From Propionibacteriales bacterium (lineage in GTDB: Bacteria > Actinomycetota > Actinomycetes > Propionibacteriales > Nocardioidaceae): a stretch of DNA of 38,290 nt. The stretch is from positions 1-38,290 of the forward strand of contig WHTJ01000041.1 of assembly GCA_009377795.1 (NCBI GenBank), given 5' to 3'. The translations under genes were made by a program, and so were the position numbers. Positions 3,850-37,389 of this stretch are shown here, piece by piece. Positions within the stretch are counted from its first letter, which is position 1, and each line of letters begins with the position of its first letter. A model generated the notes under the pieces. That model was not told where the DNA came from and searched no databases. It saw only the letters and a program-made list of their open reading frames with translations.

Positions 3850-3878
3850 TTGACATGTGTGGAAGGTACTTCTACGTT
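3850..3878 (+). promoter_or_regulatory. Promoter of the acyl-CoA mutase gene
   Basis: A perfect TTGACA -35 box (3850-3855) is followed after 17 bp by TACGTT (3873-3878), a fair -10 box. Transcription would start near 3885, about 20-35 bp before the candidate start codons. Operator site A lies between and over these boxes, a layout that suits repression. Confidence 0.55.
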
Positions 3879-3884
3879 GTGGAG
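3858..3884 (+). promoter_or_regulatory. Shared 27-bp operator, site A (acyl-CoA mutase)
   Basis: TGTGGA (3858-3863), ACTTCTAC (3868-3875) and TTGTGGAG (3877-3884) form three half-sites in the order direct, inverted, direct. The first two make a palindrome with a 7-bp centre; the last two make a second, overlapping palindrome (CTTCTAC-GTT-GTGGAG). Seven other copies occur in this window at promoters, including that of the IclR gene. Confidence 0.8.
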
Positions 3885-3903
3885 TAGTTGACAATACCAC
3901 GCC

Positions 3904-10391: not shown

Positions 10392-11821
10392 CGGGTTCCC
10401 CTTCCCGCCATGAGGGTGGTGAGCGCCCGGACGTCATCGCCGCGCTCGAGGTGGACGATCAGGTCGAGCAGTGCCGCCACACCCCGGTCGTCGAGCGCGT
10501 GGGCGGCCAGGCGCCGGTACTTGTCGATGATCGCGGTCGGCGGCACCGGGTCGTCCACGCCCCCCCGACGCCGGCCCCGGTCGCCGCTCAGCGTCACACC
10601 GGTGCCGGTCAGCACCTCGACCCGCACGGCGTGCCGGCCGTCGGCGCCGAGCTCGTCGAAGCGGGTCTCGGGCGTGACCTCGACCCGCGCGGCGAGCTTG
10701 AGCAGGTCCGGCTCGGCGAGCAGGTCGTCGGCGAACTGGTCCACCGCGACCGCGCCGAAGATGAGCATCGCCGCCACGCAGTACTGGAAGCTCATCTGCG
10801 CCGCGGTAGCGCCCTTTGGCCGGTAAGGAAAGCCGCAGTGCAGGAAGGCGTGCGTGGTGCAGCGCACGCGTACCGACGCCACGTCGGGCGCCGCCACCTT
10901 GTGCTTCGCGATGAGGTCCTCGAGCACGTCCAGACTGCTGTGGATGGCGGCGCAGGCGGCGTGCCGCTTGAACTCGATCTCGCCGGAGTGCCACACCGTA
11001 CCGAGGCCGGCCGTCAACCGCGCGGGGTCGGAGGCGGGGGTACCCAACGTCGTGAGCAGGCCGCCGAAGGTCGCCTCGAAGACGTCTACTATTCCGGTGA
11101 ACCCCTCGGCGGCCAGGGCGGCGGCACGGACCCCGGTCTGCCCGGCCAGCCCAGCGTGCATGCGCTTGACCATCGCGCCCTCCTGGGCCGCCATCAGGCC
11201 GGACGCCTGCGTGCCGGCGATGCCGAGGGCGTGCACAGTGCTCCCCGGGCCGAGGTCGCGCAGGCGGGCCGCGGCAGCGGCCGCACCGAACACCCCGGCC
11301 GTCCCTTGTGGGTGGTATCCGGCGGTAAAGTGCCCCTGGCCCAGCGCTGCCCCCACCCGGGTGCACACCTCGTATCCCGCGACGATCGCGGTGAGCAGCT
11401 CCGCGCCGGTGACCGTCCTCGGCAAAGACTCCGCGACGGCCAGCGCCGCCGGCACGACCGCGGCGCTGGGATGATGGAACGAGGCCTTGTGGAGATCGTC
11501 AATCTCGGCCGCGTGGGCCGCCGTCCCGTTCGCCAGGGTGGCGAGTGTGGCGCTCGTCCGCAGCGTGGTTCCCCAGAGCGTCGCGGCCGGTCCCGCCTGC
11601 TCGGACCGGACGTACCGGTGCGCCAGCTGGGTCCACGGCAGCGTCGTGCCGTAGAGGGCGCATCCGAGCAGGTCAACCAGGGCGAGCTTCACATGCTCGA
11701 TAACGGATGACGGGATATCCGCGAAGCTCAGCTGGGAGACGAACGTGGCCAGCCGGGCGGTCGGGCCCTCGTCCGTCGCTGCGACCGCGCCGGTACCGGG
11801 ACAGGTGTCGGGGACGGTCAT
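10388..11821 (-). CDS. MmgE/PrpD family protein (second of three)
   Basis: A 477-residue member of the MmgE/PrpD family. Core motifs are GTAAHAAEIDD and FHHPSAAVVPAALAVAE, then GAAAAAARLRDL, KRMHAGLAGQTGVRAAAL and KRHAACAAIHSSLDV. The usual DFDD is EIDD here, which sets it apart from the other two copies. The start is ATG 11821, with GGGAGG upstream and 14 bp after the thiolase-like gene. The upstream extension to 12106 is thiolase sequence in another frame. It may be a dehydratase, isomerase or decarboxylase for a carboxylated intermediate; the exact reaction cannot be assigned. Confidence 0.91.
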   Translation of the reverse strand: MTVPDTCPGTGAVAATDEGPTARLATFVSQLSFADIPSSVIEHVKLALVDLLGCALYGTTLPWTQLAHRYVRSEQAGPAATLWGTTLRTSATLATLANGTAAHAAEIDDLHKASFHHPSAAVVPAALAVAESLPRTVTGAELLTAIVAGYEVCTRVGAALGQGHFTAGYHPQGTAGVFGAAAAAARLRDLGPGSTVHALGIAGTQASGLMAAQEGAMVKRMHAGLAGQTGVRAAALAAEGFTGIVDVFEATFGGLLTTLGTPASDPARLTAGLGTVWHSGEIEFKRHAACAAIHSSLDVLEDLIAKHKVAAPDVASVRVRCTTHAFLHCGFPYRPKGATAAQMSFQYCVAAMLIFGAVAVDQFADDLLAEPDLLKLAARVEVTPETRFDELGADGRHAVRVEVLTGTGVTLSGDRGRRRGGVDDPVPPTAIIDKYRRLAAHALDDRGVAALLDLIVHLERGDDVRALTTLMAGRGTR

Positions 11822-11835
11822 GGCGCACGCCTCCC

Positions 11836-13014
11836 TCAGCTGGGAACCGCTGTGCCGAGAATCGATACAGCGGCCTTCTCGAAAGCCTTCGCGGAGCAGT
11901 ACTGGGCGACGTGGGCGTCGGCGACCTGCCGCGCGCCGCACTCCCCCCGCAGCTGGCGCACCGCCTCGCACAGGTGCAGCCAGCCCCACATGTAGCTCTC
12001 GGAGAGCTGCCCGCCGCTGGTGTTGACCGGGAGGTCTCCGCCCAGGCGGGTGTGACCCGCGGCGACGAACGGGCCGGACTCGCCCACCGCGCAGAAACCG
12101 AACCACTCGAGCATCTGCAGCACATAGACACTGGTTGGATCCTGGATGTACAGCACATCGACGTCATCCCGGCGCACGCCGGCCCGGGGGTAGATGGCGT
12201 CGCCGAGCGACCGGATCCACGGGCGTAGCAAGTTGTCTGGATTCTGGTGCAGCCGCAGCCCGGTGACCTCGTCGATGCCGAGCACGTACACGGGCGGGCG
12301 TGGCCGGTCCCGCGCTGCCTGAGCGGTGGTGACGATGAGCGCGGCGCCACCATCCGAGATCATGCACACGTCCGGCCTGCGCAGCGGCTCGACAAGGTAA
12401 GGCGCGGCCAGATAGTCCGCAAGGGATAGGTCCTGGGTGAAGATGGCGAGCGGGTTCAGCTTCGCGTTGTGCCGTTGGTTCACCGCGATGTGCCCCAGCT
12501 GCTCCTCGGTGGTGCCGTACAGGTGGGCGTGCCGCTGGAAGGCCAGGGCCGCGGGACCCGCGATGTTCACGAACCCGTGCGGCTCGTAAAGGGCGGAGCC
12601 CGCCCCCGCCCCGGTGGCGAACCGGTTGCCGGCCGTCCGCTGGTTGGTGCCATACAGGATGGCGATCGTGTCGGCGAGGCCGCTGGCGATCGCCATGACC
12701 GCCAGGTGCAGGGAGAAGTTGCAGGTGCCGTAATCCAGCGTGGCGCCGTAGCGCGGATTCAGCCCGGCGAGCCGCCCGATCTCGGTGTCGATGCCGAAGT
12801 CGCCATGCGACCGGCAGGTGATGAGACCGTCGATGTCGGCCTTCTCGAGCCCGGCGTCGGCGAGGGCCAGAGCGAGTGCCTCGATCGCGATCTCGTCGGC
12901 ACCGCGCCCCGCAAGCTCGCCCTGCTGCGTCGTGCCGACGCCCACGATCGCTGTCGCGCCGCGCAGCGCGGCCCACCGGTCGTTCGCGCCCCCGGCGCGG
13001 TGTTCACCGGTCAT
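11836..13014 (-). CDS. Thiolase-like protein (SCP-x/lipid-transfer type), possible retro-aldolase
   Basis: This 392-residue protein belongs to the SCP-x-like thiolase branch: IVGVGTT near the N-terminus, DYGTCNFSLHLAV at the position of the thiolase nucleophile loop, and the diagnostic GGDLPVNTSGGQLSESY near residues 330-350. A Cys is present in the nucleophile loop (about residue 98), unlike the paralogue at 28340. Members either cleave 3-ketoacyl-CoA or, like Ltp2 with a DUF35 partner, split 3-hydroxyacyl-CoA by retro-aldol reaction. The DUF35 gene three positions downstream fits the second role. Its ATG overlaps the stop codon of the cyclase-family gene by 4 bp. Confidence 0.85.
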   Translation of the reverse strand: MTGEHRAGGANDRWAALRGATAIVGVGTTQQGELAGRGADEIAIEALALALADAGLEKADIDGLITCRSHGDFGIDTEIGRLAGLNPRYGATLDYGTCNFSLHLAVMAIASGLADTIAILYGTNQRTAGNRFATGAGAGSALYEPHGFVNIAGPAALAFQRHAHLYGTTEEQLGHIAVNQRHNAKLNPLAIFTQDLSLADYLAAPYLVEPLRRPDVCMISDGGAALIVTTAQAARDRPRPPVYVLGIDEVTGLRLHQNPDNLLRPWIRSLGDAIYPRAGVRRDDVDVLYIQDPTSVYVLQMLEWFGFCAVGESGPFVAAGHTRLGGDLPVNTSGGQLSESYMWGWLHLCEAVRQLRGECGARQVADAHVAQYCSAKAFEKAAVSILGTAVPS

Positions 13015-13907
13015 GTGACCAGCAACGGGTTTACCGGGCTGCCCACGCCACGGGAGATGCGCAGGGGGGCTACGACGAGCATGCCGGTGGTGACGCCGGC
13101 CATCGCCGGCTGGCGCAGGTCGAGCATCTCGATGAGCGTGACCCCGAGCTCACACACCAGCCGTGCGTGCAGCGGTGGCAGCGCACCCCGCCGCCCGGGA
13201 GCCTCGACCGCGATGTTGTCCGCCCCGACCACGGCGATGTCATGCGCCGCGAACCAGTCTGCCGTCCCGGGAGCGACGACGGCGAACCCGCGCTCATGAA
13301 GCGGCTCCGCCGCCAGCGCGGCGTCCATCCAGCCGGTCCGGAACAACAGCGCGTCGCCGGGCTCCGGTCGGGCGCCGACCCGGGCGAAGTGTGCCTCGAT
13401 GTCATCTACCGTGATGTCGCTGTTGCGGTCGCCGGCCCGATCCGCGAAGTCCAGCAGATGGGCGGTGGTGACGATGCCGCCGAGCTTCTCCACGCCCAGC
13501 CGCCCAGCCCCGCTGCTGCGCACCTCGCGGTACGAGAAACCGTTGTAGAGGCGCCCCCCCGACCACATGTGGGCCAGCCCATCGATGTGTGTCGTGCCCT
13601 GCGGATAGAGAGTGAGGTAGTCGTCGGCGGTGCCCCAGTCGTGACGCTCCAGCGCCGCGAAGTCGCCGCCGTCGTGGACCATGAAGTGCATCGGCGCGGT
13701 CCGCTCACCACCGACGGGTGCGTTGCGGCGCAGCTCAATCCCGAGCTCGTAGACGCCACCCTGCCGAGGCCCGCGGCAGGCGGCCAGGACGCGATCGCCG
13801 GTAATGAGGTTGACCGCGCCGCGCTCGTCTTCCGCCCCCCAGCGGCCCCAGTTTCCGGGGCCTCGCACCGGGTCCAGCGCGCCGACCGGGTCGTCCGCTC
13901 CCGCCAT
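13011..13907 (-). CDS. Cyclase-family metal-dependent hydrolase
   Basis: A 298-residue protein of the cyclase superfamily, which includes bacterial kynurenine formamidase and isatin hydrolase. The metal-binding signature is GTTHIDGLAHM, with His107, Asp109 and His113, replacing the usual HxGTHxDxPxH. These enzymes hydrolyse amides or lactone-like rings using a divalent metal. It is the first gene of the leftward operon ending at 5472. The promoter and operator site C lie in the 61-bp gap upstream. Possible job: opening a ring or hydrolysing an ester or amide in the pathway. The substrate is unknown. Confidence 0.83.
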   Translation of the reverse strand: MAGADDPVGALDPVRGPGNWGRWGAEDERGAVNLITGDRVLAACRGPRQGGVYELGIELRRNAPVGGERTAPMHFMVHDGGDFAALERHDWGTADDYLTLYPQGTTHIDGLAHMWSGGRLYNGFSYREVRSSGAGRLGVEKLGGIVTTAHLLDFADRAGDRNSDITVDDIEAHFARVGARPEPGDALLFRTGWMDAALAAEPLHERGFAVVAPGTADWFAAHDIAVVGADNIAVEAPGRRGALPPLHARLVCELGVTLIEMLDLRQPAMAGVTTGMLVVAPLRISRGVGSPVNPLLVT

Positions 13908-13924: not shown

Positions 13925-13951
13925 TGTGGATAAAGCTTCCACATTGTAGAC
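13925..13951 (+). promoter_or_regulatory. Shared 27-bp operator, site C (cyclase-family operon)
   Basis: TGTGGA (13925-13930) and TCCACA (13937-13942) form a perfect palindrome around 7 bp; TTGTAGAC (13944-13951) gives the third half-site. It covers the -10 box and start of transcription of the seven-gene leftward operon. Unlike most copies its orientation is opposite to the gene it controls. Confidence 0.8.
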
Positions 13952-13972
13952 GGCATCAAAGTTCCGTGTCAA
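13943..13972 (-). promoter_or_regulatory. Promoter of the leftward cyclase/PrpD/ligase operon
   Basis: On the minus strand TTGACA (13972-13967) is followed after 18 bp by TACAAT (13948-13943), close to consensus. The -35 box overlaps the stop codon of the upstream MmgE/PrpD gene. Transcription would start near 13936, about 29 bp before the ATG at 13907. Confidence 0.65.
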
Positions 13973-15402
13973 CCCCGGCGAGGCGTACGCCGTAGCGCCG
14001 CGGTGAGGGGCTCGACCGTCGGCAGCGTCTCCAGCTGGTCGAGCTGAGTGACGAGCCACGCCACCTCGGGATCGGCCAGCCCGCCCCAGCGGGCGCAGTC
14101 GGCGAACTTCGCGAGCAGCTCGCGTTCGGGCAGCAGTTCACCGAACCCCCGGCCGGCGGGGGCATCGACGGCTGCGCTTGCCGCCGAGCCGTCGGTCCCC
14201 ACCACGCGCAGGACGCATGGCCAGCGCATGTCGGGTCCGGCGGCCGCACCGGCTCGGTCGCGCACCCGCACCCGGCTGGCGAGGTCTCGCACGCGAGGGT
14301 CACCGACCCGCTCGTCGCTGAACTGCGCCATCCCGACCATCCGGTCGACGAGCGCGACCGTGACGCAGTGCTCGAGGTTGAACCGCGCCTCGGTGCCGGT
14401 CCGCGGCGGATGGGTGATGACCAGCCGCCGGACGTACGGGTCAACCGTGCAGATAATCTCATCGATCTCTTCGGACACCCGCTCGGTGGCGGCGAGCCGC
14501 AGCGCCGCTTCGATCGGCGCCTGCGTGACGCCGCACGAGGGGTACCGCTTGATGGAGAGTCCCCCCACGGCGGCGGTGAAGGAGCGGTCGAGCGCGTGCG
14601 ACAACCGCAGCGCCCCACCGCCGTGAGCCTCGACGAACCCCGCGAGGACGCCGGACCCTCCGGTGAACCCGCGCTCGGCCAGGGCCGCCGCCAGGATTCC
14701 CGTCTGCGCGGCGGTGCCCGCGTTCATCGCCTTGCCCATCGAGCCGAAGACGCTGCGCATCCCGCTGGCACGGTTGGCTGCGATGGCAACGGCGTGGGCG
14801 GTCCGCTCGGCGGTGTGGTTCAGCAGCCTCGCCACGCCGAGAGCGGCCCCGATAGCCCCGATGGTCGCGGTGGGGTGCCATCCGGCCGAGTAGTGATCCG
14901 GATTGATCCCGCCGGCGATCGCGGTGGCGGCGTCCAGCGCGTACAGGTAGGCCGCGATGAGCTCCGCGCCACTGCTGGCCCGCTGCTCGGCCACCGCGAG
15001 CAGTGCGGGCAGCAGCACGGCGGTCGGATGCGTCATCGACGGGTGGTGGGAGTCATCGAAGTCGAGCGCGTGCGCGGTAGTGCCGTTGACGAAGGCGGCG
15101 GCCGCGGGCGAGGTCGTGAACCCGCGACCCAGCGCGGTACTCGTGCCGACGGCCGCCTCGGCGCGCACCTGGTCGGCGACGATCCGGCCCGACGGCTCCG
15201 CCAGCCCGGCGAGGATCACGCCGAGGCAGTCCCGGATGGCGAGCTTGGCGACCCGGACCGCGGGCGCGGGCAGCCGGTCATACCCGCCGCCTGCCACGTA
15301 CGCCGCCACCGCCGCCTCGGTCGCGACCGGATCCCCGTCGCCACCGGCGATGACCGGAGCCCGGCCGCTGCCGACGGCGGCGGCCGGGCGGTCTCCGGTC
15401 AT
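13969..15402 (-). CDS. MmgE/PrpD family protein (third of three)
   Basis: A 477-residue MmgE/PrpD protein with GTTAHALDFDD, MTHPTAVLLPALLAVAE, KAMNAGTAAQTGILAAAL and KRYPSCGVTQAPIEA. It resembles the first copy more than the second in the DFDD motif but is clearly distinct from both. Its ATG overlaps the P450 stop codon by 4 bp, so it is cotranscribed with the P450 from the operator G promoter rather than with the other two copies. This suggests that it acts near the oxidative steps. Function within the family (dehydratase, decarboxylase, isomerase) cannot be settled. Confidence 0.92.
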   Translation of the reverse strand: MTGDRPAAAVGSGRAPVIAGGDGDPVATEAAVAAYVAGGGYDRLPAPAVRVAKLAIRDCLGVILAGLAEPSGRIVADQVRAEAAVGTSTALGRGFTTSPAAAAFVNGTTAHALDFDDSHHPSMTHPTAVLLPALLAVAEQRASSGAELIAAYLYALDAATAIAGGINPDHYSAGWHPTATIGAIGAALGVARLLNHTAERTAHAVAIAANRASGMRSVFGSMGKAMNAGTAAQTGILAAALAERGFTGGSGVLAGFVEAHGGGALRLSHALDRSFTAAVGGLSIKRYPSCGVTQAPIEAALRLAATERVSEEIDEIICTVDPYVRRLVITHPPRTGTEARFNLEHCVTVALVDRMVGMAQFSDERVGDPRVRDLASRVRVRDRAGAAAGPDMRWPCVLRVVGTDGSAASAAVDAPAGRGFGELLPERELLAKFADCARWGGLADPEVAWLVTQLDQLETLPTVEPLTAALRRTPRRG

Positions 15403-16613
15403 CGCCGGTGCAGCAACAGCGGCAGGCGCTGGAAACCGCAGTGCGTCGCGGCCGCGGCGATCCGCACGCTGGGCGTGATCCCGGGCTTGATAGAGGTATA
15501 ACGGTCAAGCACAGCGTTGAGGCTGATTCGGGCCTCCAGCCGGGCAAGCGGCGCTCCGATGCAGAAGTGGGCGCCGTGGCCGAAGGCCAGGTGCGCGCGG
15601 CGCGCCCGGCTCGGTTCGAAGTCGTCGGGATCGGCGAAGGCCTCCGGATCGCGGTTGGCCGCGCCGTAGCACAGCAGCACCTGCGCCCCGGCGGGGATCG
15701 TCGTTCCGCCGAGGGTGACCTGGCGGGTCGTGATGCGAGCCATCCACTGGACGGGACTCTCGAAGCGCAGCACCTCCTCGACCACCGCTTCGACGAGCGA
15801 CCGGTCCGCGCGCAGCCGGTCGACCCAGTCGGGTCGGTGGGCGAGCAGGTTGAACAGGTTGCCGAGCAGGTTGGTGGTGGTGACGTTTCCGGCGACCAGC
15901 AGGAGCGCGCAGATGCCGGAAACCTGCTCCTCGGTGAGGTGCTCCCCGTCCACTTCAGCCTGGACCAGGGCGTTGATGAGGTCCGGCCGAGGGTCTGCCC
16001 GCCGCCGGTCGGCCTCCATGACGAAATATTCGACCAGCGCGGAGTTCGCCGCCCGCGCATGGCTCAGCGAGTCCGCGAGGGCCGGATCCGTCTCGGCGCC
16101 CGAACCGCTGGCCCCGATGAGGTACGTGCGCTGGTCGGACCACTCCTTCAACTGAGCGAGGTCAGCTTCCTCCACACCCATCATCCGGCCGATCACGGCC
16201 ATCGGCAGCCGGTCGCAGAAGCCGGCGATCATCTCGACCTCGCCCGAACCGAGCTCCCCGAGCATCCGGACCGCGGTGGCGACCACCCAGTCCTCCAGCG
16301 CGGCGACCCGCCCGGGTGTGAAAGCCGTGTTCACCAAACGCCGGTGCTTCGTGTGCCACGGCGGGTCCTCGAAGATGATCGGAGTCTGGCTCAGCGCCGG
16401 GTTGTTGGAGTTGCTGTGGTCCGACGAGAACGTCGCCGGGGCCGCCACCGCTCGCATGACATCCTTGTGCCGCAACACAAGCCAGCGGTCGCCCGCGAGA
16501 ACGGGGCCCCGGTTGCGCAGCCGGGCGTACTGGGGGAACGGATCGACCACCCACTCCGGCGAGAGCACGCCCACCCCGTCCCCACCGGATTGGGCAGCCG
16601 GACCACTAACCAT
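15399..16613 (-). CDS. Cytochrome P450
   Basis: A 404-residue soluble bacterial P450. The heme ligand is Cys351 in FGHGAHFCIGAPLARLEA; ExxR is EVLR in EEVLRFESPVQ; the I-helix reads LLVAGNVTTT. The conserved acidic residue before the I-helix Thr (Asp251 in P450cam) is Val here, which is unusual and may alter proton delivery. No ferredoxin or reductase is encoded in the window. I start it at ATG 16613, where the protein (MVSGPAAQSG) begins about 3-4 bp after the expected transcription start; the longer frame to 16712 crosses the promoter. It probably hydroxylates the imported substrate. Operator site G ends 3 bp upstream of the start codon. Confidence 0.92.
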   Translation of the reverse strand: MVSGPAAQSGGDGVGVLSPEWVVDPFPQYARLRNRGPVLAGDRWLVLRHKDVMRAVAAPATFSSDHSNSNNPALSQTPIIFEDPPWHTKHRRLVNTAFTPGRVAALEDWVVATAVRMLGELGSGEVEMIAGFCDRLPMAVIGRMMGVEEADLAQLKEWSDQRTYLIGASGSGAETDPALADSLSHARAANSALVEYFVMEADRRRADPRPDLINALVQAEVDGEHLTEEQVSGICALLLVAGNVTTTNLLGNLFNLLAHRPDWVDRLRADRSLVEAVVEEVLRFESPVQWMARITTRQVTLGGTTIPAGAQVLLCYGAANRDPEAFADPDDFEPSRARRAHLAFGHGAHFCIGAPLARLEARISLNAVLDRYTSIKPGITPSVRIAAAATHCGFQRLPLLLHRR

Positions 16614-16615
16614 CA

Positions 16616-16642
16616 CGTGGTCATGTATACCATAATGTGGCA
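16616..16642 (+). promoter_or_regulatory. Shared 27-bp operator, site G (P450 / SDR divergent promoter)
   Basis: CGTGGT (16616-16621), TATACCAT (16626-16633) and ATGTGGCA (16635-16642) match the three half-sites with changes in the first and middle ones. This single copy lies between the divergent P450 (start 16613) and SDR (start 16701) genes and could control both. Confidence 0.7.
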
Positions 16643-16652
16643 GACTTCTCAA
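16624..16652 (-). promoter_or_regulatory. Promoter of P450 and third MmgE/PrpD gene, apparently leaderless
   Basis: On the minus strand TTGAGA (16652-16647), 17 bp, then TATACA (16629-16624). A start 7 bp downstream would be near 16617, leaving at most about 4 bases before the ATG at 16613, so the message is probably leaderless. No ribosome site is visible. Confidence 0.5.
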
Positions 16653-16700
16653 GCGCCCGAGTCTCGTCCGGCACGGGCCAAGCGACGAAAGGAGCACACG

Positions 16701-24639: not shown

Positions 24640-24666
24640 TTCTACGTTGTGGAAGTATTTACCACA
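24640..24666 (-). promoter_or_regulatory. Shared 27-bp operator, site B (ABC importer operon)
   Basis: On the minus strand: TGTGGT (24666-24661), ACTTCCAC (24656-24649), ACGTAGAA (24647-24640). Its second part is almost identical to site A: the 15 bases TTCTACGTTGTGGAA here differ by one base from the corresponding bases at 3870-3884. Confidence 0.8.
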
Positions 24667-24815: not shown

Positions 24816-24842
24816 GGTGAAAATAGCTTTCACTATACGGTA
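24816..24842 (+). promoter_or_regulatory. Shared 27-bp operator, site E (CoA-transferase operon)
   Basis: The core GTGAAA-ATAGC-TTTCAC (24817-24833) is a perfect palindrome that aligns with the first two half-sites of the other copies; the third (TACGGTA) is degenerate. It is the most divergent copy but is positioned the same way relative to the promoter. Confidence 0.6.
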
Positions 24843-24856
24843 GCGACGGTAAACTG

Positions 24857-27358
24857 ATGACGAACGATCTGCTGGACGGGGACCAGGTCTTCTCCGATCT
24901 GCGCATCATCGACCTGTCGCGGTGGGTGGCCGGAGAGTTCGCCACCAAGCTCTTCGCGGACTTCGGCGCCGACGTGGTCAAGGTGGAGCGCCCGGACGAG
25001 GGCAGCCTCACCCGCGCCTGGGGGCCGTTCCCGAAGGAGGTTCCCGATCGCGAGCGCAGCGCGCTCTTCCTGCACCTCAACACATCCAAGCGGTCGGTCG
25101 CCCTCGACTTGGCCGACCGCGGCGACCGGGCCGTGCTGCTCGACCTGGTCGCGGGGGCGGACGCGGTCGTCGAGTCCTTCCGGCCGGGCGGCTTGGAGCG
25201 TCTGGACCTGGGGCCCGCGACCCTGCTCGCCGCCAACCCGGCCCTGGTGTTGACCCGCATCACTGCGTTTGGGCAGAGCGGACCGTACCGTGACCGCGAG
25301 GCGACCGGCCTGGTGCTGCAGGCAATGGGCGGTCCTATGCACTCCACGGGTGACGCGCACCGCGCACCGCACCGCAAACCGGGCAACCTCGAGCACTACT
25401 CCATCGGACGCTATGCGGCCGAGGCGACCCTGGCCGGGCTCATCCACGCGCGGCGGGCCAGCACGGGCTGCGTGGTGGACGTGTCGGGACAGGAGGCCCT
25501 GCTCGCCAGTGGCGACCGACGCGCCTCGTACCTGCTCGCCGCGTCGTACGCCGCCACCAACGCGCCCCGGGGCATTCGCAGTGCCCACCGTGGGCAGTCC
25601 AAGCTCACCGGCCCTTTCCCTACCAGGGACGGGTACGTGATGGTCTACGTGACCAACCAGGCCTTCTCGGACCGCCTCGTGGACCTGGTCGGCGAGTCGG
25701 ATCCCGACTTTCGGGAGCGCTACCACGACGTGGAGGTGCCCCGCGAGGACTGGGCGGACTTCACCGGCCGTCTCGCGGCGTGGTTCGCGCGCCAGGACAA
25801 GCTCGACCTGATGAGCCGGGCTCAGGAGCGGCGCATCCCGCTCACGGCCTTCCTCGAGATGCACGAGCTGCTCCACCATTCGCACTTCCGTGCGCGTGGC
25901 TCGTTTGTCACCGTGACCCATCCGGTCGCGGGCACCCTGGACTACATCGGCGCCCCCTGGCGCATGGAGGGTGGCCATCGCATCCGATCGGCGGCGCCCA
26001 CTCTGGATGAGCACGCCAACCAGATCCGGGGCGAGGCAGCGCGGGCACTACGGCCGCCGCGCCCGCGCTGGGACTGGCCGCACACCGGTCCTGGGCCGCT
26101 GAACGGAGTCCGCATCGTCGACCTCACGGTCGTCTGGGCCGGTCCGGGCGGCACGGCACTGCTCGGTGACCTTGGCGCCGAGGTTATCCGCCTTGAGGGC
26201 AACAACCGCATCTCCCGGCAGGCGTCGGCCCACCTGACCCGCCAGCAGCTCGCCGTGACCGGCTACCGCGCCGCCATGTTCCCGGACCGCGAACCACAGC
26301 CGCGGCCCTACGACCGTAGCGCCATTTTCAACTGGCACTCCCGCAACAAGCTCTCCGCCTGCGCCAACCTCGATACGCCCGAGGGGCATCGGGCCGCGCT
26401 GGACCTGATCGCGAAGAGCGACGTGCTCATCGAGAACAATGCCCGAACGACCCTGGAGAAGCTCGGACTCGGCCACGAGGAGCTGCTCGCCCGGCACCCC
26501 CGCCTGGTCGTCGTCCGGATGCCGCCCATGGGGATGAGTGGGCCGATGAGCGACTACCTCGGGTACGGGCCGAACTTCAACGCCCTGGTCGGCATCGCGG
26601 CGATGGACGGCTACGAGGGTGAGACGCCCGACAGCGCGGGCGACAACTACCACATGGACGAGGCCACGCCGCCGGGCGTCGCGTTCGCCGTCATGGCCGC
26701 GCTGTGGCGCCGCGAACGCACCGGGCTGGGCGGGCTCGTCGAGTTCGCGCAGGCGGAGAATGTCATGCAGGACGTCGGCGAGTTCGTCCTTGACCGGCAG
26801 CTCAACGGGCGCAACCCGGCGATCCTGGGCAACAGCGACCCGCACCTGCTGCAGGGCGTCTTCGCCTGCGCGGGAACGGACCGCTGGGTGGCCATGTCGA
26901 TCCGCGACGACCGGGACTGGCAGGCCCTGCGCACGGTGGTAGGCGACGCCTCCTGGCTGGGCGACGGGACCACGGCGGAGTTGCGCCGGCGCAACTCCGC
27001 GAGCCTGCGGGCGCGACTGGCGGCGTGGATCGCGCCCCAGCAGTGCGAGGCGGTCGTCGCGGCGCTCGTCGCGGCCCGGGTGCCAGTCGGCGAGGTGATG
27101 ACCGAGCTACGCCTGCTCGAGGATCCGCACCTGGACGCGCGAGCGTGGTTCGTCACCCGGTCCCATCCGGCCGTCGGCACGCATAAGTATCCCGGCCATC
27201 CGTGGCAGGTGACCGGCTTCGACGTTGTCTTCGGCCGCCCGGTGCCGTCCTTCGGCGAAGACAACGAGTACGTGTACCGGCGGCTGCTGGGGTACCCGCA
27301 GGAGCGCTATGACGACCTGGTGCGGCGGTGTCTCGTGACCACCGAACAGTTCGCCTGA
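24857..27358 (+). CDS. Tandem-fused family III (CaiB/BaiF) CoA-transferase
   Basis: An 833-residue protein made of two complete CaiB/BaiF units: residues about 12-395 (VFSDLRIIDLSRWVAG) and 415-833 (LNGVRIVDLTVVWAG). Family III enzymes move CoA between carboxylic acids through an enzyme-aspartyl anhydride. Counting to the conserved helix by eye against formyl-CoA transferase, the second unit keeps the catalytic Asp (Asp601), while the first has His180 at that position. So the first half is probably structural or CoA-binding, and the fusion acts as an internal heterodimer. It heads a five-gene operon; AAGGAGG for the next gene overlaps its stop codon. The ribosome site at its own start is weak. 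Confidence 0.92.
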   Translation: MTNDLLDGDQVFSDLRIIDLSRWVAGEFATKLFADFGADVVKVERPDEGSLTRAWGPFPKEVPDRERSALFLHLNTSKRSVALDLADRGDRAVLLDLVAGADAVVESFRPGGLERLDLGPATLLAANPALVLTRITAFGQSGPYRDREATGLVLQAMGGPMHSTGDAHRAPHRKPGNLEHYSIGRYAAEATLAGLIHARRASTGCVVDVSGQEALLASGDRRASYLLAASYAATNAPRGIRSAHRGQSKLTGPFPTRDGYVMVYVTNQAFSDRLVDLVGESDPDFRERYHDVEVPREDWADFTGRLAAWFARQDKLDLMSRAQERRIPLTAFLEMHELLHHSHFRARGSFVTVTHPVAGTLDYIGAPWRMEGGHRIRSAAPTLDEHANQIRGEAARALRPPRPRWDWPHTGPGPLNGVRIVDLTVVWAGPGGTALLGDLGAEVIRLEGNNRISRQASAHLTRQQLAVTGYRAAMFPDREPQPRPYDRSAIFNWHSRNKLSACANLDTPEGHRAALDLIAKSDVLIENNARTTLEKLGLGHEELLARHPRLVVVRMPPMGMSGPMSDYLGYGPNFNALVGIAAMDGYEGETPDSAGDNYHMDEATPPGVAFAVMAALWRRERTGLGGLVEFAQAENVMQDVGEFVLDRQLNGRNPAILGNSDPHLLQGVFACAGTDRWVAMSIRDDRDWQALRTVVGDASWLGDGTTAELRRRNSASLRARLAAWIAPQQCEAVVAALVAARVPVGEVMTELRLLEDPHLDARAWFVTRSHPAVGTHKYPGHPWQVTGFDVVFGRPVPSFGEDNEYVYRRLLGYPQERYDDLVRRCLVTTEQFA

Positions 27359-27369
27359 AGGAGGCATGG

Positions 27370-27897
27370 ATGACGGAGCTGAGCGAGGCGGAGGCGCTGA
27401 TCGGCGACGATGCGCGCGCGGTGATCGGGCACGAGCTGAACCGTACGGTGGGGACCGTACGCAGACTCGAGTTCCAGCGCTGGGCGGCCGCGGTCGGCGA
27501 CCGTAACCCGCTCTACTTCGACGCGAAGTACGCGCGGGCCCACGGGTACCGCGATGTCGCGGCACCGCCACTGTACCTGGCGTACATCGGCGCAAGTGTG
27601 GTCGACCTCGACCAGCTGCGCCCCGACGGACTGGCGCGGCAGTCAGGCTCGGGCGTCGTGCCGCTGCCGAAGTGCCCGCGACGCATGGCCGGCGGCGACG
27701 ACTACACGTTCCACGAGCCGGTCTACGACGGCGACGTCATCACCACGGTGCGGCGTCTGGCCGAGCTGGAGCCCAAGGCCGGCCGCTCGGGACCGTTTGT
27801 GCTCATGCGCTTCCACACGACCTTCACCCGCGACGACGGCGTGCTCGTCGGTGAGGTGGCGGGGTCACTCATCGCTCGACCGGCGAAGGGGGCTTGA
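27370..27897 (+). CDS. MaoC-like dehydratase, N-terminal hot-dog (FAS1-like) type
   Basis: A 175-residue single hot-dog protein of the N-terminal MaoC type: VRRLEFQRWAAAVGDRNPLYFD near the start and AAPPLYLAYIG, then YTFHEPVYDGDVITT in the middle. Such proteins pair with a second MaoC protein to form an enoyl-CoA hydratase heterodimer; the partner is the next gene. The start is ATG 27370 because AAGGAGG (27358-27364) lies 5 bp upstream; an ATG at 27366 is in another frame. Confidence 0.87.
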   Translation: MTELSEAEALIGDDARAVIGHELNRTVGTVRRLEFQRWAAAVGDRNPLYFDAKYARAHGYRDVAAPPLYLAYIGASVVDLDQLRPDGLARQSGSGVVPLPKCPRRMAGGDDYTFHEPVYDGDVITTVRRLAELEPKAGRSGPFVLMRFHTTFTRDDGVLVGEVAGSLIARPAKGA

Positions 27898-27899
27898 CA

Positions 27900-28343
27900 G
27901 TGGACGACCAGGTCTACTTCGAGGACGTGACCGTGGGCGCGGAGATCCCCCCGCTCTGCCTAGCGGTAAGCCGCGTGCAGATGTTCTTCTTCAGTGCCGC
28001 CACCTACAACGGGCACCGCATCCACTACGACGTCACGTGGGCCCGCGACGTCGAGGGGTACCCGGACATTCTCGTGCATGGCCCACTGCAGGTGGCGTCG
28101 CTGGCCCGGGCGCTCACCGACTGGGCCAGCGGAGGTGGCCGCCTGATCCGGTACGCGGTGCAGAACCGCGGCACCGCGCACCCCGACGAGGAGCTGCAGT
28201 TCCGCGGGTTGGTGACGGCGCTCCGGCCGGATGGTGACCGCGGGCTGGTGGAGCTGGAGATCCGGGGCGAGAAGGGCGGTACTGTGCTCATGCCCGGCAC
28301 GGCCACGGTGAGCCTGCCCCGGCGAGGGAAGGCAGGCGAATGA
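27900..28343 (+). CDS. MaoC-like enoyl-CoA hydratase
   Basis: A 147-residue hot-dog protein with the hydratase pattern ATYNGHRIHYD and the following ILVHGPLQVASLAR, where the His (in RIHYD) and the polar residue before it stand for the hydratase motif. It should add water to a 2-enoyl-CoA, with the preceding MaoC-like protein as the other half. The start could be TTG 27894, overlapping the upstream stop, or GTG 27900, which is preferred because an AAGGGGG-like ribosome site lies 7 bp before it. The stop overlaps the thiolase-like ATG by 4 bp. Confidence 0.87.
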   Translation: MDDQVYFEDVTVGAEIPPLCLAVSRVQMFFFSAATYNGHRIHYDVTWARDVEGYPDILVHGPLQVASLARALTDWASGGGRLIRYAVQNRGTAHPDEELQFRGLVTALRPDGDRGLVELEIRGEKGGTVLMPGTATVSLPRRGKAGE

Positions 28344-29542
28344 CCGGCCTGCGGGGTGAGGCCGCGATCGTCGGCTACGTGGAGCGGGCGCCGACACGAA
28401 ACCCGAGCCGCCCACAACGATTCTCCATCGAGCAGTGGGCTCAGCTCGCCGCGGAGGCGCTGGCCGATGCCGGCATCGGGGCCCGACGGGTCAACGGCAT
28501 TGTGACCAATCCCATCGGTGAGTCCGACCGGTTCGCGTCCGCGACCCTCGCCGAGTACCTCGGTATCCCGATCAACTTCGGTGAGGTCGTCGACCTGGGC
28601 GGGGCGACGGCCGCCGGCATGGTGTGGCGGGCCGCGGCCGCCGTGGAGCTCGGCCTCTGCGATGTCGTGCTCGCCATGCTGCCCGGCTCGCGTGACTACC
28701 CGCGGTCCGCGCGGCGGCCTGCCGCCGATCGGGGGTGGTACGGCGCCTCCAGCAACATCTATGGCTCGCCGCAGGCCGAGTTCGAGATCCCGTACGGCAA
28801 CCTCGGCCAGAATGCGCCGTACGCGCAGATCGCCCGGCGGTACGCGGCCGAGTTCGGTTACAACGCGCGCGCCACGGCCAAGGTCGCGGCGGACCAGCGC
28901 AGCAACGCCAACGCGACGCCCCACGCGGTCTTCCACGCCACGCCGCTGACCATCGACGACGTGCTGGCAAGCCCGATGGTCGCCGACCCGATCCACATGC
29001 TGGAGATGGTGATGAGCTGCCATGGTGGTGCGGGCGTGGTCATCGCCAGTGGCGACGTGGCGGCCCGCGCCCGCCACCGTCCTATTTGGGTAAAGGGCTT
29101 CGGTGAACGGATCGCGTTCAAGACACCGACCTACGCCGAGGATCTGCTGCGCTCGCCTATCGCCGAGGCGGCCGAGGCCGCGTTCGGCTCGGCCGGACTG
29201 TCCCGCTCGGACATAGACATGGCTTCCATCTACGACTGCTACACGATCACGGTTGTGATGAGCCTCGAGGATGCGGGGTTCTGCGAGAAGGGGGGCGGCA
29301 TGAGCTTCGTCGCGTCGCACGACCTGACCTATCGAGGCGACTTCCCGCTCAACACGTCGGGCGGCCAGCTCTCCTTCGGACAAGCCGGTATCGCCGGCGG
29401 GATGCACCACGTGTGCGACGCCGTCCGCCAGCTCACCGGCCGGGCGGGGGCGGCGCAGGTGCGCGACTGCAACACCGCGTTCGTCAGCGGCAACGGCGGC
29501 ATCATGAGCGAGCAGGTCGCGCTGATCCTGCAGGGGGCCTGA
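28340..29542 (+). CDS. Thiolase-like protein (SCP-x/Ltp2 type), probable non-thiolytic lyase
   Basis: A 400-residue SCP-x-like protein with EAAIVGYVERAPTR at the N-terminus, MEMVMSCHGG mid-chain, SIYDCYTIT, DFPLNTSGGQLSFGQ and the C-terminal SGNGGIMSEQ. The loop that carries the thiolase nucleophile reads DLGGATAAG, with no Cys, so classical thiolysis is unlikely. Together with the MaoC pair upstream and DUF35 gene downstream this is the gene order of steroid side-chain hydratase/retro-aldolase systems, so cleavage of a 3-hydroxyacyl-CoA (often with a tertiary alcohol) is the best guess. The stop and next ATG share one base. Confidence 0.86.
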   Translation: MTGLRGEAAIVGYVERAPTRNPSRPQRFSIEQWAQLAAEALADAGIGARRVNGIVTNPIGESDRFASATLAEYLGIPINFGEVVDLGGATAAGMVWRAAAAVELGLCDVVLAMLPGSRDYPRSARRPAADRGWYGASSNIYGSPQAEFEIPYGNLGQNAPYAQIARRYAAEFGYNARATAKVAADQRSNANATPHAVFHATPLTIDDVLASPMVADPIHMLEMVMSCHGGAGVVIASGDVAARARHRPIWVKGFGERIAFKTPTYAEDLLRSPIAEAAEAAFGSAGLSRSDIDMASIYDCYTITVVMSLEDAGFCEKGGGMSFVASHDLTYRGDFPLNTSGGQLSFGQAGIAGGMHHVCDAVRQLTGRAGAAQVRDCNTAFVSGNGGIMSEQVALILQGA

Positions 29543-29973
29543 TGACCGCGCCACCACCCGTGCCCAAGCCGATGCCGGAGCCGACCCCGGTCACCGCGCC
29601 GTTCTGGGACGCGCTGCGCGAGCACCGTATCCGCATCCAGTACTCGCCGTCGGCGGGTCGCTACGTCTTCTATCCCCGCCTGCTCGCTCCGGGCACGCTC
29701 GCGGACGACTTGGAGTGGCGCGAGATCTCTGGCCGGGGCGTGCTCTATACCTTCACGGTCGCGGCGCGCCCGACGGCCCCACCTTGGTCCGACGCCCTTC
29801 CGCAGCAGCTCGCTGTGGTCGAGTGGGACGAGGGGCCGCGCTTCAGCACCGAGCTGACGAATGTGCATCCCGCTCAGCTGCGCGTCGGCCTCCGTGTCCG
29901 CCCGGTCTTCTGCGACTACCCCGAGCATGGCGTGACGCTGCTGCGCTACGAGCCGGACCCCGAGAGTGCTTGA
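29542..29973 (+). CDS. DUF35 OB-fold protein without zinc ligands
   Basis: A 143-residue protein that aligns with acyl-CoA-associated DUF35 proteins: an N-terminal helix TAPFWDALREHRIRIQY, a proline-rich linker where the zinc ribbon should be (YSPSAGRYVFYPRLLAPG) and an OB-fold with GRGVLYTFTVAARP and PQQLAVVEWDEG. All four zinc-binding cysteines are missing. The lost ribbon does not rule out the partner role, because the OB-fold makes the acyl-CoA contacts. It is coupled to the thiolase-like gene by a one-base overlap and ends the operon; the next promoter begins inside its last codons. Confidence 0.83.
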   Translation: MTAPPPVPKPMPEPTPVTAPFWDALREHRIRIQYSPSAGRYVFYPRLLAPGTLADDLEWREISGRGVLYTFTVAARPTAPPWSDALPQQLAVVEWDEGPRFSTELTNVHPAQLRVGLRVRPVFCDYPEHGVTLLRYEPDPESA

Positions 29974-29999
29974 CAGTCCTCGAAGAACAGTAGTACCGT
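29970..29999 (+). promoter_or_regulatory. Promoter of the BVMO operon, apparently leaderless
   Basis: TTGACA (29970-29975) overlaps the DUF35 stop codon; 18 bp later TACCGT (29994-29999). Transcription would begin about 30006-30010, on or next to the BVMO ATG at 30010, and no ribosome site is visible, so a leaderless message is likely. Confidence 0.6.
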
Positions 30000-30001
30000 G
30001 T

Positions 30002-30028
30002 TGTGGATTATGCTTCCATATAGTGACA
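30002..30028 (+). promoter_or_regulatory. Shared 27-bp operator, site D (BVMO operon)
   Basis: TGTGGA (30002-30007), GCTTCCAT (30012-30019) and TAGTGACA (30021-30028). It covers the expected transcription start and the start codon of the BVMO, so bound regulator would block initiation directly. Confidence 0.75.
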
Positions 30029-31659
30029 GCGCCGGGGGAGGGCTCGCCGATGACCGACTCGACCGACCACCCGATGTCGACGTCATCGTCGTCGGAGCCG
30101 GCTTCGCCGGTCTGTACGCGATCCTGCACCTAGTCGAGTGCGGGTTCACGGTTCGCTGCTTCGAGTCGGCCTCCGACGTCGGCGGCGTCTGGTACTGGAA
30201 CCGCTACCCGGGTGCGCGCTGCGACGTGGAGAGTGTCGACTACTCCTACTCCTTCTCGCCGGAGCTTGAGCAGGACTACGAGTGGACCGAGCGTTACGCC
30301 GCCCAGCCCGATATCCAGGCCTACCTGAGCCACGCCGCGGAACGGTTCGACCTCCGGTCGCGCATCCAGTTCGACTCACCGGTCACGAGCTCCCGCTTCG
30401 ACGAGGAGCGTCGGCTGTGGCGGGTGACGATCGCCGACGGCGCCAGCGCGTCAGCTCGCTTCCTCGTCCTCGCCACGGGGCCTCTCTCCGTGCCGCTCGT
30501 GCCGTCGCTGCCCGGCATCGACAGCTTCGCCGGTGCGGTCTACCACACGAGCCGGTGGCCAAGCGAGCCCGTCGACTTCACCGGACGCCGGGTTGGCGTG
30601 ATCGGCACCGGCTCGTCGGGGATCCAGTCGATCCCGGTGATCGCCGAGCAGTGCGAGCACCTGTACGTCTTCCAGCGCACGGCCAACTTCAGCATCCCGG
30701 CGCAGAACCGGCCGATGACGCCGGAGGCGCTCGCGGATATCAAGGCCAACTACCGGGCCCGACGCGCCCTGACCCTTCTCACGAAGGGTGGCTCGCCGTA
30801 CCAGTACCGCACCGACAGTCCGGTCGCGCTGGCGGAGGACGAGCGACGCCAGGCGTTCGAGGCGGCCTGGGAGCGTGGCGGCACGCACTTCCTCAAGTCG
30901 TTCGGCGACCTGGTCACCAACGAGGAGTCGAACCGACTCGCGGCCGAGTTCGTCGCGGAGAAGATCCGCTCCATCGTCGACGACCCCGCCATTGCCGAGC
31001 TGCTCATCCCATCGGACCATCCATTGGGCAGCAAGCGCATCTGCGCCGACACCAACTACTACCAGGCCTTCAACCGCCAGAACGTCACGCTGGTCGATCT
31101 GCGCCGTACCCCGATCGCCGAGGTCACACCGTCCGGTATCCGCACCGAAGGGGGGGAATACGGCCTCGACGACCTGGTGCTCGCCACCGGCTTCGACGCC
31201 ATGACAGGCTCGTTCCAGGCTGTCTACCCGCGCGGGGCCGGTGGTCTGTCCCTGCGCGACGCGTGGCGGGGCGGCCCGCGGACGTACCTGGGAGTGGCGG
31301 TAGCGGGTTTCCCGAACCTGTTCCTGCTCTCCGGACCCGGCAGCCCCTCCGTGCTGGCGAACATGGTGCGAACCGCCGAGCAACAGGTGGACTGGCTCGC
31401 CGGCCTGCTGCGTCACGTCGTCGACCAGGGCGCCACGTTGGTCGAGGCCGACGTGGCCGCGCAGGACGCGTGGGTGCGGCATGTGAACGACGCGGCCGAA
31501 GGAACCATCCACCTGCGCGCCAACAACTGGTACCTCGGCGCGAACGTGCCGGGCAAGCCGCGGGTCTTCATGCCCTACGCCGGCGGCCTCGACGTCTACC
31601 GGCGGGAGTGCGACGAGATCGCCGCTGACGGGTACCGGGGGTTCGCCGTTGTCGACTAG
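30010..31659 (+). CDS. Type I Baeyer-Villiger monooxygenase
   Basis: A 549-residue flavoprotein monooxygenase that inserts oxygen next to a carbonyl, turning ketones into esters or lactones with FAD and NADPH. It has two Rossmann motifs (GAGFAG at 29-34; GTGSSG at 199-204) and the type I BVMO fingerprint FxGxxxHxxxWP as FAGAVYHTSRWP at 173-184. Length and layout match cyclohexanone and phenylacetone monooxygenases. ATG 30010 is the only usable in-frame start near the first strand; an ATG at 30050 is out of frame. Its ligase neighbour starts before its stop codon, so the two are coupled. Confidence 0.94.
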   Translation: MLPYSDSAGGGLADDRLDRPPDVDVIVVGAGFAGLYAILHLVECGFTVRCFESASDVGGVWYWNRYPGARCDVESVDYSYSFSPELEQDYEWTERYAAQPDIQAYLSHAAERFDLRSRIQFDSPVTSSRFDEERRLWRVTIADGASASARFLVLATGPLSVPLVPSLPGIDSFAGAVYHTSRWPSEPVDFTGRRVGVIGTGSSGIQSIPVIAEQCEHLYVFQRTANFSIPAQNRPMTPEALADIKANYRARRALTLLTKGGSPYQYRTDSPVALAEDERRQAFEAAWERGGTHFLKSFGDLVTNEESNRLAAEFVAEKIRSIVDDPAIAELLIPSDHPLGSKRICADTNYYQAFNRQNVTLVDLRRTPIAEVTPSGIRTEGGEYGLDDLVLATGFDAMTGSFQAVYPRGAGGLSLRDAWRGGPRTYLGVAVAGFPNLFLLSGPGSPSVLANMVRTAEQQVDWLAGLLRHVVDQGATLVEADVAAQDAWVRHVNDAAEGTIHLRANNWYLGANVPGKPRVFMPYAGGLDVYRRECDEIAADGYRGFAVVD

Positions 31660-35062: not shown

Positions 35063-35938
35063 TCAGCTGACTGCGTTGGCGGCCCTACGCTTCGTCGCCG
35101 CGCCGCGCCGCGCGATGGCCGCCGGGTGACTGGCGCCGAGTTGCTCGCTGATCGTCGCCGCCGTCTCCAGCAACTGCGGTACCACCGCGTTCATCGCCGC
35201 CCGGGTCCACCGGACCGCCGGGCCGCCGATGTTGATCGCAGCCTCCATGCCGCGCGGGCTGAAGACCGGGGCCGCGATGCCCGCCGCACCGGCCACGGCC
35301 TCACCCTCGCTCGTCGCGTAATGGTCCTCCCGCACCGACAACAGCTCCCGCTTCAGGCGCGACAGCGCGAGGACAACCGAGCTTGCAGGCAGGACCAGCT
35401 TTGTCTCGCCACCGAGGATCTCGTCGAGAGACTCATCGCTCATCCCGCTGAGCAGCGCCTTGCCGGCCGCACCGGCATAGAGCGGAAAGACCCGCCCCAC
35501 GCCCATGGCCATGCGGACGACCTGATGGCTTACCACCTCTGCGATACAGACCCGGCTGCTGCCGACCGCGACATGCAGGCTGACAGTCTCGTCGGTAAGG
35601 TCGCGAAGCGCCTCCAGGTGCGGCATCGACAGGGTGAGCAACTTGTCCTGCTCACCACGCAGCAGCACCACCTGAGCCAGCTTCATCACCGATGGGCCGA
35701 GGCTGTAGTGCCCGGTGATTGGATCGTGCATCACATAGCCTCGCGACTGCAGCGCCCGGACCATCCGATGGGCCGTCGGCACAGTGAGACCCGCGAACTC
35801 GCTGATCTCCGTCAACGTCACGGAGGGGTTGACGGTTGAGAACACCTCGAGGATCGTCAGAGCCCGGTGGATCGCCTGCGCGCCGCGCTCCTCCATGCCG
35901 GCGTCGTTGTCCGCCGGCGCTCCCGAACGTCGTGCCAT
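35063..35938 (-). CDS. IclR-family transcriptional regulator
   Basis: A 291-residue regulator. A winged helix-turn-helix occupies about residues 22-80 (TLTEISEFAGLTVPTAHRMVRALQSRGYV), followed by the IclR ligand-binding domain (LSMPHLEALRDLTDETVSLHV; FPLYAGAAGKALLS; GVAGIAAPVF-like GAAGIAAPVFSPRG). IclR proteins sense small aromatic or organic acids and act on palindromic sites. The eight shared operators, one 34 bp upstream of its own ATG, make it the likely regulator of the whole region; this is inferred. The start is ATG 35938 with GGAGG upstream. A C-terminal Arg/Ala-rich tail of about 20 residues is unusual for the family. Confidence 0.93.
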   Translation of the reverse strand: MARRSGAPADNDAGMEERGAQAIHRALTILEVFSTVNPSVTLTEISEFAGLTVPTAHRMVRALQSRGYVMHDPITGHYSLGPSVMKLAQVVLLRGEQDKLLTLSMPHLEALRDLTDETVSLHVAVGSSRVCIAEVVSHQVVRMAMGVGRVFPLYAGAAGKALLSGMSDESLDEILGGETKLVLPASSVVLALSRLKRELLSVREDHYATSEGEAVAGAAGIAAPVFSPRGMEAAINIGGPAVRWTRAAMNAVVPQLLETAATISEQLGASHPAAIARRGAATKRRAANAVS

Positions 35939-35971: not shown

Positions 35972-35998
35972 TGCCACCATATGGTATCGCATTCCACA
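35972..35998 (-). promoter_or_regulatory. Shared 27-bp operator, site F (IclR gene / AbrB transporter)
   Basis: On the minus strand: TGTGGA (35998-35993), GATACCAT (35988-35981), TGGTGGCA (35979-35972). The inner ACCATATGGT is a perfect 10-bp palindrome. It lies between the IclR gene and the divergent membrane-protein gene and could control both, giving autoregulation. Confidence 0.72.
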
Positions 35999-37243: not shown

Positions 37244-37347
37244 GATAGCCGCCTACGCCACCCGATGAAGTGATTTCTTGTCGTTTGTTGGTCGCATCGA
37301 CGGCGAAGCCGCCGGCCACGACGCTGTGACCAGCGACTTTGCACGAG

Positions 37348-37389
37348 TGGGGCGGACGGGACTCGAACCCGTGACCTATCGATTATGAG
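37348..37389 (-). tRNA. 3' half of a tRNA gene with CAU anticodon (attachment-site scar)
   Basis: Read on the minus strand from 37389 this is the anticodon loop CTCATAA, the 3' anticodon strand TCGAT, the variable loop, a perfect T arm (ACGGG, TTCGAGT, CCCGT) and the acceptor strand CCGCCCC plus discriminator A. No CCA is encoded. The 5' half (acceptor, D arm, 5' anticodon strand) is absent from the sequence beyond 37389. Isolated 3' halves of tRNA genes are the usual product of site-specific integration at tRNA genes. It would be elongator Met or the Ile tRNA with a CAU anticodon. It is not a functional gene. Confidence 0.7.

Follow-up and report, generated by a model that had tools for sequence, protein, structure and literature searches.

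A predicted IclR-family operator at the likely transcription start of a Baeyer-Villiger monooxygenase gene whose start codon probably lies beyond it

In Escherichia coli, the binding motifs of the IclR-family regulators IclR (TGGAAATNATTTCCA) and AllR (KTTGGAAWAWTWTTCCAAC) share a GGAA-N5-TTCC core, and tandem IclR sites are reported at distances of 18–22 nt in the available text of PMC8222616. An operator placed over the promoter of a leaderless transcript has likewise been described in the accessible part of PMC3017554, where the acuR-acuI-dddL mRNA of Rhodobacter sphaeroides was found to be leaderless by 5′ RACE and an inverted-repeat operator overlaps its promoter. For the position of leaderless starts, the available portion of PMC3160421 places the bacterial TANNNT signal so that its first T lies about 12 bp before the start, and mycobacterial starts at +1 are favoured over those at +2 to +5 according to the available portion of PMC4633059.

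We analysed a window comprising one entire contig of 38,290 bp from a GC-rich Propionibacteriales genome (4.58 Mb, 182 contigs). The contig carries a catabolic gene set that includes a Baeyer-Villiger monooxygenase (BVMO), a cytochrome P450, short-chain dehydrogenases, acyl-CoA ligases and thiolases, together with three MmgE/PrpD-family proteins, a CoA-transferase, a mutase subunit and an ABC transporter. The three MmgE/PrpD-family genes (7070–8515, 10388–12106 and 13969–15402, all on the minus strand) could be a clue to the substrate. Towards the cluster's end, positions 37345–37385 resemble by eye the 3′ part of a tRNA gene; ARAGORN found no tRNA genes in the window. The genes and promoters on which the argument turns are the following.

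29970–29999, plus strand: predicted BVMO promoter, with -35 TTGACA (29970–29975), an 18-nt spacer and -10 TACCGT (29994–29999)
30010–31659, plus strand: type I BVMO, frame as sequenced, matching structures 4aos and 1w4x
15399–16613, minus strand: cytochrome P450
16611–16652, minus strand: predicted P450 promoter and start, with -35 TTGAGA (16652–16647), a 17-nt spacer, -10 TATACA (16629–16624), GTG 16616 and ATG 16613
35063–35938, minus strand: IclR-family regulator gene, with a canonical Shine-Dalgarno sequence (SD) AGGAGG and its own putative operator upstream

Type I BVMOs are recognised by the hallmark motif FxGxxxHxxxW. The translation of the BVMO frame carries this motif as FAGAVYHTSRW along with both Rossmann motifs (GAGFAG and GTGSSG), which identifies the predicted product as a type I BVMO. 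The closest solved structures are a steroid monooxygenase (4aos) and phenylacetone monooxygenase (1w4x), to which the protein is alike over nearly its whole length. Identity to the 80 genomic relatives among the matches listed ranges from only 49 to 57%, and one plasmid record outside the listed rows is counted in the 60–80% identity band. Footprinting of the BVMO promoter was ruled out because the best relatives reach only 55% identity across 58 genomes and 57% among the 80 loci listed. No second genome of the genus occurred among the 58 genomes with BVMO relatives, and the species itself yielded no further sequence.

To describe the palindromes near these promoters, we seeded an operator matrix with three sites (24648, 30002 and 16616), for which the maximum over 30 shuffles was 15.2. 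The putative operators on the contig are as follows; none is assigned to a strand.

3858–3876 and 3878–3896: tandem operators at the promoter TTGACA-17-TACGTT (3850–3878), before the mutase ORF 3904–5478
13925–13943: operator of a cyclase-family gene (13011–13907, minus strand), its first base coinciding with the last of the -10 TACAAT; not a seed site
16616–16634: operator G, overlapping the P450 -10 in the divergent region between the P450 and a short-chain dehydrogenase gene; one mismatch; seed site
24648–24666: operator of an ABC-transporter binding-protein gene (minus strand), overlapping the -10 AATACT; seed site
24816–24834: weaker operator GGTGAAAATAGCTTTCACT, 3 nt 3′ of the -10 of the CoA-transferase gene 24857–27358
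30002–30020: core of operator D, TGTGGATTATGCTTCCATA, an exact match to TRTGGWN7WCCAYA
35980–35998: operator before the IclR-family gene, in the divergent region shared with an AbrB-family membrane protein; not a seed site

The matrix recovered two strong sites that had not been used as seeds, at 13925 (23.3 bits) and 35980 (20.6 bits), and site D, itself one of the three seeds, scored 23.3 against the shuffle maximum of 15.2. The tandem pair, whose centres are 20 bp apart, scored 15.4 (3858, marginal against that same maximum) and 16.2 (3878). The 24816 site scored 8.2 bits, within the shuffle range, and is assigned by position only. A weak pattern at 16636–16654, 20 bp from G and also within the shuffle range at 6.4 bits, could be the degenerate second member of a tandem pair. 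With up to one mismatch, TRTGGWN7WCCAYA occurs six times in the window against 0.29 expected. Four exact matches exist in the 4.58-Mb genome, all on this contig, which makes up less than 1% of it. Since the pattern was written from the window sites, after they had been seen, the informative part of this count is that the rest of the genome contains no exact match. Allowing one mismatch yielded 26 places in the genome, six on this contig and 20 elsewhere; the latter look like chance, as a reversed-pattern control gave 19. We take the putative operators on this contig to be real and to belong to one family.

The likely cognate repressor is the product of 35063–35938, although both the pairing and repression as such are predictions. 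IclR_C (PF01614) matches above its cut-off at 35147–35644, one of 19 such matches in the genome; IclR-family NCBIfam models match below their equivalog cut-offs, and PDB entries of the family match as well. A search of 341 genomes of the family, this one included, gave no orthologue of the regulator at E 1e-45 in any of the other 340. A regulator encoded alongside its presumed targets and a shared IclR-type palindrome at several of their promoters are what an IclR-family regulon would be expected to display. The position of the operators at the -10 or +1 suggests repression, a sign read from geometry; the site at 35980–35998 makes autoregulation of the IclR-family gene probable, and the regulator likely controls the whole cluster. 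With the operators and the IclR-family gene, this uncharacterised BVMO/P450 catabolic cluster gains a regulon that can be tested.

The first-pass annotation had proposed that the two oxygenase genes share a leaderless design, with the operator at the very start, unlike the other operons of the region. The operator positions speak against a shared geometry and against one peculiar to these two genes. Site D begins 3 nt 3′ of its -10, as does the weak 24816 site; the 13925 and 3878 operators start on the last base of their -10 elements, and the tandem partner at 3858 also covers part of the -10 at 3878; G and the 24648 site of the transporter binding-protein gene overlap theirs. The genes behind the 24816, 13925 and 3878 promoters encode the CoA-transferase, the cyclase-family protein and the mutase. 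BVMO and P450 thus fall in different geometry classes, each common to non-oxygenase genes. Because the two geometries differ, D lying just 3′ of the -10 and G over it, and because the position of D recurs at 24816, 13925 and 3878 and that of G at 24648, a shared design peculiar to the oxygenases does not hold.

At the BVMO gene, the proposed promoter, TTGACA-18-TACCGT followed by ATG 30010, was found where the first-pass annotation had put it, with 10 nt between the -10 and the ATG. An operator does lie over the apparent start of the gene; its core covers 30002–30020 rather than the 30002–30028 first given, and it spans the predicted +1 at about 30006–30007. Promoters of the form TTGAC-N17..20-TANNNT occur three times in the window (0.28 expected; none of 100 shuffles reached three), while a sigma-70 scanner placed both the BVMO and the P450 promoters below threshold. 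The ChsH2-type OB-fold ORF upstream ends at 29973, and its stop codon shares bases with the BVMO -35. We consider it very improbable that the BVMO is expressed mainly by read-through from the upstream genes (24857–29973), the promoter at 29970–29999 being weak or inactive. Those genes do share its strand, their last ORF does end inside the -35, and the SD at 30037 is the one that a read-through mRNA should use, although read-through is compatible with either BVMO start codon. Nevertheless, the gap between operator and -10 here equals the one at the 24816 promoter, a placement that would be pointless at a dead promoter.

The choice of start codon at the BVMO gene involves three further features.

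30010–30012, plus strand: initial ATG of the BVMO frame in the present sequence, lacking an SD and separated from the -10 by 10 nt
30037–30052, plus strand: SD GGAGG (30037–30041), 8 nt, then ATG 30050, reading MTDSTDHP, one base out of the BVMO frame
30068–30079, plus strand: inferred frame break, where codon scores per frame show the coding signal moving from the ATG 30050 frame to the BVMO frame

ATG 30010 had been described as the only usable start codon. That description is not borne out by the sequence 3′ of operator D, GGGGGAGGG-CTCGCCG-ATG (30050): ATG 30050 has GGAGG 8 nt upstream and looks like the beginning of a coding region, albeit out of frame as sequenced. All eight codons from ATG 30050 end in G or C, compared with four of seven in the BVMO frame over the same stretch. 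Scored with a codon table for this genome (211 long ORFs within 396 kb), these eight codons reach +5.9 against -3.2 for the BVMO frame; a table made from the window genes alone gave +4.7 against -1.3, and the seven codons that follow the ATG scored +4.9 bits against -3.4. Beyond about 30074, the BVMO frame is clearly coding. Among 9,884 coding windows, a +1-shifted frame was as good in 0.5%, and the difference between frames was as large in 0.7%. Out-of-frame combinations of SD and ATG numbered 16 in 68,542 coding codons, corresponding to about 0.005 expected over the 22 codons concerned here; an equally good stretch followed none of the 16, and it followed five of 562 out-of-frame ATGs of any kind. 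Conversely, the first 21 codons from ATG 30010 scored -8.9, a value as low as that being found in three of 98 SD-led genes.

Comparison with homologues favours the same codon, with the reservation that the procedure, which covered 86 rows including the window and searched 7–60 codons upstream of GAGFAG, itself favours SD-led starts: 62 of 85 homologue loci have such a start 10–27 codons before GAGFAG, and ATG 30050 lies about 15 and ATG 30010 28 codons before it. The second residue is N, T or S in 59 of the 85 chosen homologue starts; it would be T from ATG 30050 and L from ATG 30010. The homologue L007, of the same family, carries an SD and reads MTSHHTPDHDVIVVGAGFAG, the gene itself having been matched in two pieces, and another, L079, has ATGs without an SD at 24 and 33 codons. 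Comparison of the N-terminal protein sequences with homologues was uninformative in either frame (the best score had a shuffle P of 0.37 in the 30010 frame and 0.20 in the 30050 frame), and the RNA structure of the putative BVMO leader showed nothing unusual (z 0.89).

Because ATG 30050 is one base off the BVMO frame, a frame break near 30068–30079, by assembly error or mutation, is the simplest reading. Programmed frameshifting was considered and set aside, as inspection revealed no classical slippery heptamer between 30050 and 30079. A real and recent break, with ATG 30050 as the ancestral start and a BVMO that is now non-functional or rescued from ATG 30010, falls within the probability given to a leadered gene and is in itself doubtful: it draws on the same frame statistics, and the BVMO is intact through 31659 and aligns over nearly its whole length with solved enzymes, as would be consistent with continued use, but here it is inseparable from an assembly error. 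No further broken genes were seen among the window ORFs with Pfam matches. A frame break beside the true start is easily overlooked by automatic annotation.

The alternative takes ATG 30010 as the BVMO start on a leaderless or near-leaderless mRNA, the operator doubling as the first codons. In its favour, no stop interrupts the enzyme's reading frame from 29998 onward, and the promoter puts +1 at about 30006–30010. Architecture of leaderless type, moreover, is common in this genome, in which TTGAC-N17..20-TANNNT followed by an ATG at 4–14 nt was found 20 times against two in the reversed-pattern control. The same architecture with GTG showed a modest excess (19 against 13 in the control). The 20 ATG cases are distributed over spacings of 4 nt (two), 5 (three), 6 (four), 7 (three), 8 (two), 10 (three), 12 (one), 13 (one) and 14 nt (one), so that 14 lie at 4–8 nt and six at the six spacings of 9–14 nt; a further 12, against three in the control, lie at the eleven spacings of 15–25 nt, some of them at the same promoters and one in this window. 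The 10 nt of the BVMO gene is off the 4–8 nt peak, in a range no denser per spacing than 15–25 nt, and one of the two other 10-nt promoters also has a GTG at 7 nt. Since the counts at 9–14 and at 15–25 nt both exceed their reversed-pattern controls, the BVMO spacing is merely disfavoured. In addition, mycobacteria use starts at +2 to +5 less than +1 (available portion of PMC4633059), the codon scores of this reading are poor, its 28 codons to GAGFAG exceed those of all 62 SD-led homologues (by one codon only), and the SD with a well-coded ATG 30050 would have to be a coincidence.

Leaderless-looking starts also occur in seven of 85 BVMO homologues, with spacings of 6–8 nt. Two Pseudonocardia homologues, L101 (about 1636–1670) and L111 (about 746–782), share an upstream element, ATTCTGACGG..TGTGCATTAGTGT, that ends 6–7 nt before the ATG, and both are apparently leaderless. 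L111 resembles the BVMO N-terminus in a PYSD sequence, a likeness that was followed up and rejected: by eye, its DNA shares no operator, and the two Pseudonocardia genes have TAGTGT 6–7 nt before the ATG instead. Several general properties also temper the case for ATG 30050. By itself, GGAGG-N5..10-ATG is no rarity in the window, with 12 occurrences against 8.5 expected. The absence of an SD at ATG 30010 is not unusual, because only 98 of the 211 long ORFs are SD-led by our own rule. In the 30010 reading, the alignment with phenylacetone monooxygenase extends back to residue 8, and the ATG 30050 frame as sequenced stops after 27 codons. Given the common GGAGG-ATG pattern, the proportion of SD-led ORFs, the phenylacetone monooxygenase alignment and the seven homologues, translation from ATG 30010 keeps a minority chance of some weight; a leaderless BVMO is nonetheless unlikely. 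The fuller arrangement, in which an IclR-type operator also encodes the BVMO N-terminus (MLPYSD...) and the repressor site and the starts of transcription and translation fall within 20 bp on a near-leaderless mRNA, is more doubtful still. Were it true, ATG 30050 would be a relic or the start of an overlapping short ORF competing for ribosomes on read-through transcripts. For practical purposes, BVMO expressed from ATG 30010 could carry an N-terminal extension absent in most homologues. A search of the available literature found no paper joining baeyer-villiger monooxygenase, leaderless and promoter.

Our preferred model, which we regard as probable as a whole, combines an IclR-family repressor on site D, a leadered BVMO starting at ATG 30050 and a frame break. 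Site D would be one of seven or eight 19-bp palindromes of the TGTGGAa-N5-tTCCACA type bound by the regulator encoded at 35063–35938, most likely a repressor of this catabolic regulon. On site D, its dimer would occupy the transcription start of the BVMO gene, just 3′ of the -10, and so prevent either open-complex formation or promoter escape; an inducer, which may be a metabolite of the pathway, would release it. The mRNA most likely begins at about 30006–30007, which would give it a leader of the ordinary kind, about 43 nt long, with GGAGG as the ribosome site ahead of the start codon ATG 30050. Soon after that codon, the frame break would make the open frame seem to begin at ATG 30010, inside the operator; the apparent open frame from there would then create the illusion of a leaderless gene.

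The second oxygenase gene fared differently. For the P450, the first-pass description of TTGAGA-17-TATACA with ATG 16613 and site G ending 3 bp away was confirmed, with the qualification that the -10 lacks a T at position 6 and so is no TANNNT. There is no SD at the P450 start, and the distance from the -10 is 7 nt to GTG 16616 and 10 nt to ATG 16613. ATG 16613 lies 23 and GTG 16616 24 codons before DPFP, the next in-frame starts downstream only 10 and 8. Of the 54 other genomes that gave a match, 29 supplied one homologous locus each, several of them near-identical; these loci have an ATG 16–17 codons before DPYP, without an SD in 10 of 29 by our rule, and by that measure, the downstream starts of the window P450 are short. 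Caution is warranted by the first 15 codons, which score poorly (-5.6). Given the absence of an SD and a GTG 7 nt past the -10, a leaderless P450 mRNA starting at GTG 16616 or ATG 16613 is plausible. The idea that both oxygenases are leaderless can therefore be kept as a prediction for the P450, which has no SD and a -10 at the right distance, whereas for the BVMO it is opposed by the spacing, the codon scores and the SD-led ATG 30050.

Compared with actinobacterial TANNNT-led leaderless genes, in which about 12 nt is typical, the BVMO has 16 nt from the first T to ATG 30010 (available portions of PMC3160421 and PMC4633059). The P450, like actinobacterial leaderless genes, has a -10 followed after 7 nt by GTG without an SD, an arrangement that other genes of this genome fit; counted from its first T, the distance is 13 nt, but the -10 is without the last T of TANNNT. 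The acuR-acuI-dddL promoter offers a precedent for the arrangement proposed at the BVMO, an operator over a leaderless promoter (accessible part of PMC3017554). There, however, the regulator belongs to the TetR family and the transcript starts exactly at the AUG, whereas here an IclR-family regulator, a predicted start and an off-peak BVMO spacing are involved (same part of PMC3017554). With acuR-acuI-dddL already known from that source, a leaderless BVMO, even if true, would add one more case to a principle already described.

Unlike those of the IclR and AllR sites, the outer bases here are TGTGGAA/TTCCACA, and neither general consensus given in the available text of PMC8222616 is matched letter for letter; a further difference is the target set, here a predicted one comprising BVMO, P450, MmgE/PrpD-family and mutase genes. 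Like the E. coli IclR and AllR regulons, on the other hand, the cluster has an IclR-family gene within it and GGAA-N5-TTCC-type palindromes at the promoters of its predicted targets, and it resembles IclR-family regulons in its tandem pair 20 bp apart and in the operator before the regulator's own gene. By analogy with these systems, the overall architecture is that of an ordinary IclR-type repressor regulon.
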